Assembly: GCA_016213925.1 (NCBI GenBank)
Contig: JACQZH010000002.1
Coordinates: 1 to 32,716 of the forward strand
Direction of reading: 5' to 3'
DNA from: Candidatus Omnitrophota bacterium
GTDB lineage: Bacteria; Omnitrophota; Gorgyraeia; B26-G9
DNA: 32,716 nucleotides
This document shows, one piece after another, positions 4,535-28,305 of this stretch. Below the pieces are notes generated by a model. It searched no databases and was not told the DNA's origin. It was given only the letters and a program-made list of their open reading frames with translations. The number at the start of each line of letters is the position of its first letter. Position 1 is the stretch's first letter. The translations under genes and the position numbers were made by a program.

Positions 4535-4870
4535 ATGGGAAAGAAAACAATTAGTATTTGCTTGCTGCTGTTGTGTATAGTTAGTATGGATGCGGGATAT
4601 TTATTTGCTTATACGGATAATGATAATGAGTGGACAGGGGCTGATAAAGCCGTGCATTTCACAGTATCCTGCGGATTAAGTTTGGGCGCGTATAATTACT
4701 ATAAGAAAAATACTGATTATTCGGATTCTAAAGCAAAAACCGCGGCTTTCTGTACGAGCCTTGCTTTTGGGCTGGCAAAAGAACTTATTGATGAAGAATT
4801 TAGCTGGAAAGACCTCACTTGGGATGCTGTGGGATCTGCTGTAGGAATAGGAATAAGTTTTGAGTTCTAA
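4535..4870 (+). CDS. YfiM/DUF2279-like exported protein
   Basis: Signal peptide MGKKTISICLLLLCIVSMDAGYLFA, then DKAVHFTVSCGLSLGAYNYYKK and GLAKELIDEEFSWKDLTWDAVGSAVG. Confidence 0.65.
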   Translation: MGKKTISICLLLLCIVSMDAGYLFAYTDNDNEWTGADKAVHFTVSCGLSLGAYNYYKKNTDYSDSKAKTAAFCTSLAFGLAKELIDEEFSWKDLTWDAVGSAVGIGISFEF

Positions 4871-4900
4871 TCCCTAATCCCTGTTCCCTGATCCCTAGTC
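4868..4900. repeat. Degenerate heptamer array (taatccc)n
   Basis: taatccc taatccc tgttccc tgatccc tagtc. Confidence 0.8.
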
Positions 4901-15294: not shown

Positions 15295-15374
15295 AGTAAC
15301 CAGTAACCAGTAACCAGAGAACAGAAGACATAATGGTACGCCTCAAAAAACAGGTTAGCGCTTATCGGTTAGCG
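15295..15374. repeat. Intergenic word-repeats: (gtaacca)x3 and ggttagcg x2
   Basis: agtaaccagtaaccagtaaccag from 15295; ggttagcg at 15353-15360 and 15367-15374. Confidence 0.75.
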
Positions 15375-15502: not shown

Positions 15503-15521
15503 ATTTTTATTAAACAATAAT

Positions 15522-15676
15522 ACAGGTATTTACTTAACAGGGAAAACGGTGTAATTCCGTTGCGGTCCCGCCGCTGTAACCGGGGACGAACGCTGCAGGT
15601 AAAGTCACTGTTCCGGAATGGAATGGGAAGGCGCGGCTAGTAGGATGATCCGGGAGTCAGAAAACCTGCCTGTATG
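15522..15676 (+). promoter_or_regulatory. Cobalamin riboswitch 1
   Basis: acaggta (5') / tgcctgt (3') closing helix; cggtgtaattccgttgcggtcccgccgctgtaaccgggg B12-box-like core; gggagtcagaaaacctgcctgt 3' end; directly upstream of cobS. Confidence 0.93.
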
Positions 15677-15728
15677 CAAGAATATTTTTTTTTATTCTCG
15701 AAGAAGGATGAAGAAAACACGGGTGCAA

Positions 15729-17728: not shown

Positions 17729-18796
17729 ATGAGCATGGATAAGATAAATAGGATTATTGCGAGGATAGATGATTTAGACTTGGCTGTCATGGAAAAAGCG
17801 CAGAAAAAACTTGATTTTCTGACCAAGCCCCAGGGAAGCCTGGGAAAACTTGAAGATTTGGCAAAACATATTTGCGGGATCAGGGGCAAGCTGGTTTTGG
17901 AACTTAAAAATAAGGTTATTTTTACGTTTGCCGGGGATCACGGAATTGCCGAAGAAGGGGTGAGTGCTTTTCCTCAGGAAGTAACCAGCCAGATGGTTTA
18001 TAATTTTTTAGCGGGCGGCGCGGGCGTGAACGTGCTGGCAAAACATGCCGGAGCGCGCGTAATAGTCGCGGATTTAGGGGTAAAAAGCAGGTTAAAAGCT
18101 AAAAGCAAAAAGCTAAAAATTAAAAAAATAGATTTTGGTACGAAAAATTTCGCAAAAGAAAAGGCAATGACCAGAGAACAGGCAGTATCTGCGATTGAAG
18201 CGGGAATCGAAATTTTCGAAGAAGAACGGGAAAACGGTATAGATATTACCGGTATTGGCGAGATGGGTATTGCCAACACGACTTCAGCCAGCGCGATTGC
18301 CGCGGTAATCACAGGCGAGAGCGTCAAAAATATTACCGGGCGGGGAACAGGGATTAATGATAAAGCTCTTGAGCATAAAATCAAGGTTATTGAACAGGCT
18401 TTATTTTTGCATCAGCCTGACAAAAAAGACGCTTTGGATATTTTATCCAAAGTCGGAGGTTATGAGATTGCCGGCTTGGCCGGGGTTATTTTGGCGGCTG
18501 CGGCGAATAAAGTGCCTGTTGTTATTGATGGTTTTATTTCAACTGCCACGGCTTTAATCGCTTATATCTTAGAGCCGAAAACAGCGCGGTATATGATCGC
18601 GGCGCATGCTTCGGTAGAGATAGGCCATAGGGCAATGCTAAAATATTTAAACTTGGAGCCTTTATTGGATCTTAATCTTCGGCTGGGGGAAGGTACCGGA
18701 GCTGCTTTGGCAATAAGCCTGGCAGAATCCGGGGTTAAAATTATGAATGAAATGGCATCGTTTGAATCAGCAGGGGTTTCAGAAAAAAGCGGGTAA
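17729..18796 (+). CDS. cobT: Nicotinate-nucleotide-dimethylbenzimidazole phosphoribosyltransferase
   Basis: LDFLTKPQGSLGKLEDLA, FAGDHGIAEEGVSAFPQEVT, GEMGIANTTSASAI, RLGEGTGAALA. Confidence 0.95.
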   Translation: MSMDKINRIIARIDDLDLAVMEKAQKKLDFLTKPQGSLGKLEDLAKHICGIRGKLVLELKNKVIFTFAGDHGIAEEGVSAFPQEVTSQMVYNFLAGGAGVNVLAKHAGARVIVADLGVKSRLKAKSKKLKIKKIDFGTKNFAKEKAMTREQAVSAIEAGIEIFEEERENGIDITGIGEMGIANTTSASAIAAVITGESVKNITGRGTGINDKALEHKIKVIEQALFLHQPDKKDALDILSKVGGYEIAGLAGVILAAAANKVPVVIDGFISTATALIAYILEPKTARYMIAAHASVEIGHRAMLKYLNLEPLLDLNLRLGEGTGAALAISLAESGVKIMNEMASFESAGVSEKSG

Positions 18797-25523: not shown

Positions 25524-25604
25524 TTCAGGGGATGGGGGAGGGAGGAGGTGATACCGAAAAAATTATTTTGATTGTTGATTGGATTATCTGTGGAAAATAT
25601 TAAT

Positions 25605-25795
25605 GTTTACTCATACCGGCAAAAGAAGTCTTCGTGAGATTCGAAGCGCTGCCCCGCAACGGTAATAACTTAGCGTGTAGCGTATAGCGTATAGCGAATA
25701 GCGGATAGTTTTCTAAACGCTAATCGCTAGCCGCTAAGTGCTAAGTTGAGCCCGGACGATTGTTGGAACATGAGAATCCTCGAGGGAGGAGAAAG
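25605..25795 (+). promoter_or_regulatory. Cobalamin riboswitch 2 (btuB leader) with an oversized peripheral hairpin
   Basis: cgtgagattcgaagcgctgccccgcaacggtaat core, agcccggacgattgttgg 3' part, ctcat (25610-25614)/atgag (25770-25774) closing helix; possible SD-sequestering tcctcgagggagga near 25778; upstream of btuB. Confidence 0.8.
25667..25747. repeat. Inverted heptamer arrays (tagcgNN) forming a long hairpin inside riboswitch 2
   Basis: aacttagcgtgtagcgtatagcgtatagcgaatagcgg opposite cgctaatcgctagccgctaagtgctaagtt; stems in register with 2-3 nt internal loops. Confidence 0.8.
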
Positions 25796-25802
25796 GAATA
25801 AA

Positions 25803-27683
25803 ATGAATAGGAGAATGGTCGCCTGTATTGTTTTGTGTTTTATGTCAGTTTTTTTTGCGGGCAGTTTAAAAGCGCAAACAGAAACAACAAAATATAATCT
25901 CGGCCAGGTTGTTGTAAGCGCGACAAAAACCGAAGAATATGTTTCGGGCATAGGCGCGAGCGCGACTGTTATTAGCAGCGAAGAAATCCGCAAAAGCGCA
26001 AAACCGACAGTTTTTGAAATCTTAAAGGATGTCCCGGGGGTGTCTTTAACAAAAAGAGGCGGATTTGGCGGAGGCGCTAATATTTATTTAAGAGGAACTA
26101 AGCCAGGGCATACGCTTGTTATGATAGATGGAGTGAAGGTAAATGACCCGATAGGAGTCGAGCGTTCCTGTGATTTCGCGCATATAAGCGCAAATAATAT
26201 TGAGAGGATCGAGGTTATCCGGGGTTCGCAGAGCACATTGTACGGGCCTGAGGCAATCGGAGGGGTTATTAATATTATTACCAAAAAAGGCAGCAAGGGA
26301 GCCCAAACGGATTATTCTATTGAAGGCGGGTCTCATAATACTTTCAGTGAGTCACTGGCAGTAAGCGGAGCGAACGAGAAGCTGAATTATTCTTTATCGG
26401 TTTTTAGGAAGGATTCCGACGGGATTTCCATGGCAAAGGATACTCAAGAAGACGATTCTTATGCCGGCACCACGGTATCGTCAAATTTCGGCGCCCGGAT
26501 TTTTGATAATAGCGAGTTGTCTTTTGTCATGCGTTATACCGGAGCGGATTATGATATTGATGACGGCGCGTATGAAGATGACCCTAATTACACTTCTGAA
26601 TGGGAACAATATAGTTCCAAGCTCGCGTTTAAGCAGGACATCAATGAAAACTGGGATCACTGCCTGGCGTTTTCTTTTATGGACATTGAAAGGTCTAACC
26701 TGGATTTTCCGGACGCGATAGACGCGGGGGATGATTTGGAAGATAAATATACGGGAGATAACAGGAAAATTGAATGGCAGCATAATTTTTCATTTTGGGA
26801 GAACCTGATGCATACCTTCGGAGCTGAGCATGAAAAAGAACGCGGGACTTCGGATTACCGATCAGGGGCATTTACAGACAGGCTTGACCGCAGGAGCATA
26901 AGCAATTATGGTTATTATTTTCAAAACCAGTTGAAGGCAACCGATAATTTTTCTGTTTTGCTCGGGGTTCGTGCCGATGATCATGAAATTTTCGGCAAGC
27001 AGGAAACCTACAAAGCCTCTTCGGTGTATTCGTTAAATAATGGGCAAACCCGCATTAAGGGGAATTGTTCGGCCGGTTTTAAGGCGCCTGCGATTTATCA
27101 GCTTTATTCAAGTTACGGGACAAGTAATTTATCCCCGGATAAAAGCAGAAGTTATGATTTCGGTTTTGAACAGGAGTTTTTTGAAAATAAATTAAATTTT
27201 AGTACAAGGTATTTTTATAATAACTTTAAAAATATGGTTGAGTTTGATATGACAGACTGGAAATATAAAAATATCGGCAGGGCAAAAACCGACGGCTATG
27301 AGTTAGAAACGGATTTTTCTGTTTTTGATGGCTTGAAACTAGCGGCTAACTACACTTTTTTGCGGGCAAAGAACAAGGACAACGGAAAGACTCTGGCGCA
27401 AAGGCCAAGAAACAGCGCGAATTTTTCCGCGGACTGGGGATTTCTACCTAAGTGGAATGTTTTCATGAACGCTAATTATAGCGGAGCGCGTTGGAATGAC
27501 GCTACCAATGCGAACAAACTAAAACATTTTTTAACCGCGGATCTGGCTCTTGCTTATGAAATAAAAGAAGATCTTGGCTTAAGCTTTCGGATAGTAAATA
27601 TCTTTGACGATAAATATCAAATTATCAGAGGTTATAATACTGAAGACAGGTCATGTTATGCCGGCATAAAAGGTAATTTTTAA
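25803..27683 (+). CDS. btuB: TonB-dependent receptor, vitamin B12-type
   Basis: Signal peptide, TonB-box-like QVVVSATKTEEY, plug VFEILKDVPGVSL...IYLRGTKPGHTLVMIDGVKVNDP...IERIEVIRGSQSTLYGPEAIGGVINIITKK; riboswitch upstream. Confidence 0.92.
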   Translation: MNRRMVACIVLCFMSVFFAGSLKAQTETTKYNLGQVVVSATKTEEYVSGIGASATVISSEEIRKSAKPTVFEILKDVPGVSLTKRGGFGGGANIYLRGTKPGHTLVMIDGVKVNDPIGVERSCDFAHISANNIERIEVIRGSQSTLYGPEAIGGVINIITKKGSKGAQTDYSIEGGSHNTFSESLAVSGANEKLNYSLSVFRKDSDGISMAKDTQEDDSYAGTTVSSNFGARIFDNSELSFVMRYTGADYDIDDGAYEDDPNYTSEWEQYSSKLAFKQDINENWDHCLAFSFMDIERSNLDFPDAIDAGDDLEDKYTGDNRKIEWQHNFSFWENLMHTFGAEHEKERGTSDYRSGAFTDRLDRRSISNYGYYFQNQLKATDNFSVLLGVRADDHEIFGKQETYKASSVYSLNNGQTRIKGNCSAGFKAPAIYQLYSSYGTSNLSPDKSRSYDFGFEQEFFENKLNFSTRYFYNNFKNMVEFDMTDWKYKNIGRAKTDGYELETDFSVFDGLKLAANYTFLRAKNKDNGKTLAQRPRNSANFSADWGFLPKWNVFMNANYSGARWNDATNANKLKHFLTADLALAYEIKEDLGLSFRIVNIFDDKYQIIRGYNTEDRSCYAGIKGNF

Positions 27684-27687
27684 TTAA

Positions 27688-28305
27688 ATGGATAATAGGA
27701 GAATAATGGCTGCTGCGTTTATGTTTTCTATGGCAGCGCATGCGATTGCGGGCGCTGCCATAGGGAACTTTTTTGACGGTTCTTTTGACAAAAAAGCAGT
27801 TTTTCCCAGAACGGAAATTATTTTAATTAAGGAAAAAGAGATTCCGGCATTATTGCCGGATATCGATATGATTGGGAAGGAGAAAAAACTTGGACAAAGC
27901 GCGAAAGAGGAAAAACCAAAAGAAACCAAACAAGAACAGTTCCAAGATGTTTACGGCCGGATAAATTTGCCTGCGGAAGAAAAGACGGAACATAAACAGG
28001 ATGTTGCTGCAAAAGAGGCAATGTTAAGATACCAGGATAAAGTTAAACAGCGCATTGAAGCGCGCCGCAGGTATCCTGCGCAGGCAAGGCAAAAGAAAAT
28101 AGAAGGAACAGTAAATATTTCTTTTTCAATAATGCGCGATGGGTCCTCTCAAGAGGCTAGGGTAGCGCAAAGTTCAGGTTGTGATATTCTCGATAAGGAG
28201 GCAGTGGATACGATTAAACGAGCTTGTCCATTTTTGCCTTTACCGGAAGAGATAACAAGTGATTCTATAGCAATATATGTTGCTATAGTATTTGCTTTAA
28301 ATTGA
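27688..28305 (+). CDS. tonB: TonB-family energy transducer
   Basis: N-terminal anchor; RRRYPAQARQKKIEGTVNISFSIMRDGSSQEARVAQSSGCDILDKEAVDTIKRACPFLPLP. Confidence 0.85.
   Translation: MDNRRIMAAAFMFSMAAHAIAGAAIGNFFDGSFDKKAVFPRTEIILIKEKEIPALLPDIDMIGKEKKLGQSAKEEKPKETKQEQFQDVYGRINLPAEEKTEHKQDVAAKEAMLRYQDKVKQRIEARRRYPAQARQKKIEGTVNISFSIMRDGSSQEARVAQSSGCDILDKEAVDTIKRACPFLPLPEEITSDSIAIYVAIVFALN

Follow-up and report, generated by a model that had tools for sequence, protein, structure and literature searches.

The outer part of the P6 helix of a cobalamin riboswitch in an Omnitrophota genome (G000) is built from heptamers and their inverted copies. The window, the whole stretch of DNA that was analysed (32,716 nucleotides), carries this riboswitch ahead of a gene for a BtuB-like TonB-dependent receptor. 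The array lies outside the conserved core, it belongs to a repeat family dispersed in the same genome, and repeat-filled P6 helices recur in relatives. We consider it likely that a dispersed inverted heptamer hairpin came to form the outer P6 of a class-II-like B12 riboswitch, where it is tolerated, and that the same helix was filled independently in relatives. The element would presumably retain ligand binding, and the hairpin would be expected to have little effect on switching.

The cobalamin riboswitch and its downstream gene

The features that were located are the following.

25605..25796, +: cobalamin riboswitch, class-II-like (no P7-P12), delimited by the clade covariance model R1
25610..25622, +: P1/P2 5′ strand, CUCAU-A-CCGGCAA, paired with 25760-25774 in the minimum-energy fold; P2 columns covary
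25630..25646, +: P4 hairpin, CUUCG-UGAGAUU-CGAAG, in the minimum-energy fold, with strong covariation (columns 26-42)
25649..25665, +: P5/L5 and start of P6, CUGCCCCGCAACGGUAA, a block invariant in 17 relatives
25666..25748, +: P6 extension, an 83-nt repeat hairpin flanked by two conserved sequences, GGUAA and AGCCCGG
25671..25708, +: 5′ arm of the array, (TAGCGNN)5-TAG, by direct reading; TRF period 7, 5.4 copies
25709..25712, +: hairpin loop UUUU, from the fold
25713..25743, +: 3′ arm of the array, CTA-NN-(CGCTANN)3-TGCTA, by direct reading; 3′ units pair at probability 0.96-0.99
25749..25766, +: 3′ core AGCCCGGACGAUUGUUGG, with the P6 closing strand, J6/3 and the P2 3′ strand, conserved as [AG]G[CT]CCGG
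25777..25790, +: putative expression platform P13, UCCUC-GAGG-GAGGA, overlapping the Shine-Dalgarno sequence and covarying (columns 128-141)
25803..27683, +: BtuB-like TonB-dependent receptor gene (PF00593, PF07715)
27688-28305: TonB gene, after the receptor gene

A covariance model, R1, was built from 17 relatives with a short P6 while the window sequence was held out. R1 called a riboswitch in the window with 90.1 bits (E 8.4e-19; 70.4 bits on an 801-base stretch with filters off) and assigned the array to an insertion in the loop at the tip of P6, with the core outside it. No core nucleotides were placed inside the array, in agreement with the claim of the earlier note that a heptamer hairpin sits within a cobalamin riboswitch. 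With the Rfam Cobalamin model, RF00174, which it had proposed as a check, the match at 25559-25781 reached 18.5 bits, below the cut-off of 31.5; it is the clade model that supports the call. The low Rfam score reflects the clade as such, because most of the relatives tested also fall below the cut-off (it was passed by 4 of 20 loci). Those members that exceed it have their match at the same riboswitch site. The exact 16-mer GCCCCGCAACGGTAAT (25651-25666) was found in 36 of 384 genomes of the class by a search that passes over cores with changed letters, and a reversed-pattern control was found in none. Among the 17 aligned relatives, 16 of 31 pairs showed two-sided changes, located in P2, P4, P6 and the Shine-Dalgarno hairpin. 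Comparison with these homologues identified all parts of the conserved core in the window: the B12-box-like block, L5, P4, the P6 closing pairs and the 3′ core. The partner strand of P1/P2 reads UUGUUGG-AAC-AUGAG. We take the element to be, with good probability, a translational class-II-like cobalamin riboswitch that would bind its ligand.

Class I riboswitches carry an extension on P6, class II riboswitches are without the P8-P12 extension, and class IIb is marked by GGAA in J3/4 and UCU in J6/3 (PMC11260477). A class I assignment was rejected because P7-P12 are absent: in the window, as in its relatives, P6 consists of a simple hairpin. The element shares with the class II members of RF00174 (IIa, env8-like, and IIb) the L5 sequence CUGCCCCGCAAC, the P4 hairpin, the P6 closing pairs and the 3′ core, as well as the L5/L13 and Shine-Dalgarno layout and a B12-type TonB receptor downstream. 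It differs from them in the 83-nt repeat hairpin in P6, the score below the cut-off and the J3/4 sequence. The marks of class IIb are missing: J3/4 (25624-25627) is AGAA in the window and GGAA in all 17 aligned relatives, J6/3 reads [AT]C[GT]A, and no UCU was seen in the J6/3 region. Judged by these sequence features, the element is filed as class-II-like only; the env8-like class IIa is set apart by its preference for methyl- or hydroxocobalamin. The AGAA may change activity or ligand preference. Riboswitch 1 of the window (15507-15687), upstream of cobS, scored 109.3 bits, matched the Rfam model over its full 189 positions and shows the P7-P12 extension of P6, the class I arrangement. Therefore, one region holds two riboswitch architectures.

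The P13 hairpin is retained in relatives, where its strands are made of different pairs (UUUUC/GAAAA in G213, for example). A kissing-loop contact between L5 and L13 is known (PMC10653944), and by analogy the GAGG loop of P13 could pair with the CCCC of L5. Binding of the ligand would favor this pairing, and the ribosome-binding site would then be closed. The array is a lengthening of P6 and lies outside the L5/P13 switch. The best NCBIfam match of the receptor was TIGR01779 (TonB-B12) with 300.6 bits, which misses the cut-off of 599.7. The gene that the earlier note calls btuB is closest to those of B12-type TonB receptors. The receptor's sequence similarity places the window in Omnitrophota. 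Ahead of the receptor gene lie genes resembling btuF, btuC and cobA, and one resembling an ABC ATPase gene.

The repeat hairpin and the dispersed heptamers

The 83-nt stretch, which corresponds to the block of approximately 80 nt described earlier, is flanked by CUGCCCCGCAACGGUAA and AGCCCGGACGAUUG (25749-25762). TAGCG occurs at 25671, 25678, 25685, 25692 and 25699, followed by TAG at 25706-25708; the 3′ side has CTA at 25713, CGCTA at 25718, 25725 and 25732, and TGCTA at 25739. With at most two mismatches, TAGCGNNTAGCGNNTAGCG had 8 matches in the window, 7 of them in the hairpin, where 0.08 were expected, and none of 100 shuffles reached this count. The hairpin folds with −36.3 kcal/mol (z −4.1), a value that none of 200 shuffles equalled. 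Its outermost pairing is that of AACUUAGC with GCUAAGUU, and a further G-U pair is possible. The arms had been said to align in register, which holds for most units; the 5′ arm is one unit longer than the 3′ arm, so that one heptamer is looped out. The unit at 25685-25689 has a pairing probability of 0.46, and the remaining units have 0.89-0.99. The ggttagcg words reported upstream of riboswitch 1 were found at about 15354-15374, 130-155 nt upstream of it. Other heptamer arrays of the window, AGTAACC (15295-15317), CTAATCC (4867-4897), TAAAAGC (18093-18118) and TTCAATA (90-109), are mostly without an inverted partner.

The repeat survey covered samples of G000 (671 kb) and G013 (293 kb); the G013 sample and three of the G000 stretches had been chosen partly for known arrays. 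The intergenic DNA of the 671 kb contained 23 segments of period 7, compared with 0-3 at other periods up to 13 and 0.3 in shuffles. Their density was 32.3 segments per 100 kb of intergenic DNA versus 0.7 in coding DNA. The heptamers of G000, among them TAGCGNN, AACCAGT, CTAAANN and AAAAGTT, are intergenic heptameric tandem repeats in that they have a unit of seven, are dispersed and are mostly non-coding. Matches to three units of TAGCGNN numbered 16 in G000, 4 of them in P6, and the reversed pattern had none. The same search gave 72 matches in G013, 54 in G129, 35 in G233 and 9 in G474. G474 has seven congeners that carry the riboswitch; these had none, and G474 is the only one of the group with a TAGCGNN P6. 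In BLAST searches the P6 motif of G366 had 35 matches in G366 itself, a count that takes in both strands and the P6 of G366. Two congeners had 11 and 5 matches, and 13 other genomes had 0-1 each. Several G366 loci share loop and arm sequence of the P6 hairpin around TTTTCCCTATATTCTACCTACTA, and a full-length relative of that hairpin, 72 nt long with 89% identity, lies away from the riboswitch in G376. Because the P6 motifs recur in their own genomes, the P6 arrays belong to dispersed repeat families. The exception is the AGAC motif of G006, which scarcely recurs in its own draft genome. All these genomes seem to be drafts assembled from metagenomes, in which short repeat arrays may be misassembled.

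TAGCGNN arrays and stand-alone TAGCGNN hairpins are scattered over this genome and over the class. Stand-alone hairpins with A/T-rich loops were found in genomes of several families, among them G013, G233, G055, G026 and G020. One of those in G233 (L187, 1501-1575) has 24-nt arms that are perfectly complementary, variable dinucleotides included, which suggests a recent inverted duplication. Copies of the repeat hairpins differ in unit number, and fixed ends like those of REP or MITE elements are not obvious. An inverted partner accompanies about one third of the heptamer arrays of G000 (one count gave 14 of 43, another 10 of 35) and all three strict P6 arrays (p 0.02, n = 3 arrays), which fits selection for pairing. 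Within the riboswitch region, strict arrays were confined to P6 apart from one in the 3′ part, and the 5′ half of the aptamer had none. RNase P RNA was considered as a second target, by analogy with cyanobacteria, and 0 of 38 loci had an internal heptamer array. The locations and the inverted partners fit a simple view in which insertions at other sites, and unpaired ones, are lost. A plentiful supply of repeats is not sufficient, since G013 and G129 are rich in TAGCGNN arrays and their P6 is short. Differences between units were concentrated in two positions weakly above chance (0.60 vs. 0.51 and 0.64 vs. 0.56). G366 also contains large nested inverted arrays of several heptamer motifs (L169, 130-400, and L170, 380-640), with predicted energies of −107 and −89 kcal/mol.

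P6 in relatives and the origin of the hairpin

P6 was compared in 40 Omnitrophota riboswitches of the same type. It ranges from 16 to 113 nt; 25 are plain hairpins of 16-34 nt and 15 measure 42-113 nt. The stem of the window is not shared by the relatives as a conserved helix, so that neither refuting observation named in the earlier note was made; some relatives have a differently built repeat hairpin. Tandem-repeat hairpins make up 11 of the 15 long P6 helices. Their period is 7 in seven genomes (G000, G003, G006, G233, G290, G366 and G474), 10 in three (G001, G002 and G008, with CACGAATNAN) and 8 in one (G332). At least eight motifs are involved: TAGCGNN, AGACNNN, AGATNNN, AGTTANA-like, NNNNTAG, CAG-rich, CACGAATNAN and TTGTGACN. 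The CACGAATNAN repeat is thus a second type within the window's family, where it makes up the P6 of three genera (L062, L025 and L065). G344 is borderline (lag-7 z 2.5 in one run and below 2.5 in another) and stands outside the eleven, and G317, which has an exact match to the 16-mer but no 3′ core, was dropped.

The strict run-score detected P6 arrays in G000 and G474 only, because the others are degenerate, and autocorrelation with shuffles was used instead. In the arms of the first 13 long P6 helices, 39.7% of positions matched at lag 7, compared with 26.8% in dinucleotide shuffles (z 8.5); lag 14 had z 7.1 and every other lag at most 1.8. The lag-7 signal persisted when the window was taken out of the long P6 set (0.371 vs. 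a null of 0.268). For individual P6 helices, the level of periodicity at lag 7 was attained in 0.8-2% of control windows.

A tree of 38 downstream receptors requires seven gains or losses of a repeat P6, each forced by well-supported branches, with G344 labelled as a repeat; without it about six changes are forced. G470, with a P6 of 31 nt, and G474, with 77 nt of TAGCGNN, are close sisters. G000 and G474, which is of another family, fall in different deep halves of the tree, and therefore the TAGCGNN P6 was most likely captured twice. It is less likely that one ancient array was inherited and changed its motif over time, since many losses would then be required. The CACGAATNAN group, in which G002 and G008 are sisters, may represent single inheritance with motif turnover. 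These data support recurrent capture at P6 from several repeat families, the extent of which was underestimated in the earlier reading.

In the mechanism that we propose, a dispersed hairpin (TAGCGNN arm, A/T-rich loop, CGCTANN arm) would have been copied in to become the outer P6, by a molecular route that is inferred, and slippage would have followed. The insert is self-complementary, so that it closes as a hairpin on P6 and holds the two conserved strands of the core together. Neither the four-way junction nor L5 nor the hairpin proposed over the Shine-Dalgarno sequence is displaced, and such an insert is therefore tolerated by selection. In relatives the tip of P6 has been filled repeatedly and independently, usually by a repeat type that is also found elsewhere in the same genome.

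The long P6 could also have grown in place, from a seed TTAGCG/CGCTAA in a native P6 that lengthened through slippage and through switching of the template from one arm to the other. In G011, a member of the window's family, a 30-nt P6 shares AACTTAGCG and CGCTAA with the window, and the short P6 helices of G470 and G376 hold single-arm fragments (AGTAGGTAGTA and CTACCTACTG) of the array of their congener G366. However, fragments like that of G011 are equally explained as remnants of deletions, the P6 motifs follow the dispersed repeats specific to each genome, and both the full-length relative of the G366 hairpin found off the riboswitch in G376 and the G366 loci sharing the TTTTCCCTATATTCTACCTACTA region speak against growth in place. 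We regard it as possible but rather unlikely. Chance or convergence, leading to an ordinary stem without any link to genomic repeats, could invoke the naturally variable P6. This account is refuted by the counts given above and deserves practically no weight, considering the eight pattern matches versus 0.08 expected, the lag-7 z of 8.5 in the long P6 set and the 16 three-unit matches in the genome versus none for the reversed pattern.

The question of what the hairpin does is related. The earlier note had left it as recruited or tolerated; toleration is better supported than recruitment in the sense of a gain of function. It is unlikely that the long P6 acts as a junction stabilizer in place of the class I P7-P12, or that its repeat number tunes folding speed or repression and B12 uptake. 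A role of this kind would agree with a long P6, able to pair back on itself, in 15 of 40 riboswitches, with the P6 extension of class I (PMC11260477) and with the lack of strict arrays in the 5′ half of the aptamer. Nonetheless, the core is kept without a long P6 in 25 of 40, the sequence and length of the helix are unconserved, the sisters G470 and G474 differ, and inspection of the inserts revealed no conserved motif for tertiary contacts. Also quite unlikely, in our estimate, is an undescribed process of Omnitrophota that spreads genome-specific heptamer hairpins, with the tip of P6 as a recurrent landing site and repeat number tuning B12 uptake. Alternatively, regulation of the receptor may no longer be needed and the array may be a disruptive insertion in a decaying riboswitch. 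The Rfam score below the cut-off would fit, and AGAA in place of the invariant GGAA means that the switch might be impaired, in which case the insert would be part of the decay. Decay is nevertheless very doubtful, as most relatives tested score below the cut-off too, and P4, the 3′ core and the invariant L5/P6 block are all retained in the window, as is P13 with compensated pairs (UCCUC/GAGGA). A captured and tolerated repeat hairpin remains the reading that we prefer.

Relation to known heptamer repeats

STRR heptamers are said to lie inside rnpB of heterocyst-forming cyanobacteria. They resemble the present case in that a structured and functional RNA has genomic tandem heptamers inside its gene, and they differ in the RNA, the phylum and the repeat sequence; here the RNA is a riboswitch, and one helix tip is filled in many relatives with differing motifs. 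Short tandem repeats in cyanobacterial rnpB are credited to Vioque 1997 (PMID 9254706) in a passage of PMC2858038. Heptamer repeats, an excess of units of seven and inverted pairs are already known from passages on GGGAATC heptamers with inverted pairs in Xanthomonas (PMC4692102), TAACTGA heptamers in Beggiatoaceae and cyanobacteria (PMC4679880) and paired heptanucleotide elements in Geobacter metallireducens (PMC2700814). According to these passages, the repeats share with those of Omnitrophota the unit of seven, the mostly intergenic location and the genome-specific sequence, and in Xanthomonas and Geobacter they often form convergent pairs capable of forming stem-loops. The motifs differ, and the passages place no heptamers inside a riboswitch. 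The open-access papers that were searched yielded no report of repeats in cobalamin riboswitches or as riboswitch helices, nor of Omnitrophota repeats. What is new here is the recurrent capture of repeats with several motifs at one helix tip of a riboswitch.

Repeat DNA can become part of the architecture of a presumably working RNA, and the core of the switch is intact in relatives. Peripheral helices vary widely among relatives and their origin is rarely visible; in this case the source can be read. A P6 filled with repeats shows why general covariance models overlook such riboswitches. Sister pairs of which one member has the insert and the other lacks it (G470/G474 and G366/G467) make the effect of a peripheral extension on the ligand response testable. 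Other parts of the riboswitch carry additions as well: extra hairpins, not built from heptamers as far as seen, were observed in the P4 loop (L071, L072, L073 and L154) and in the linker before P13 (L023, L077 and L154). The P4 loop and the linker before the Shine-Dalgarno hairpin are further tolerated insertion sites in relatives.
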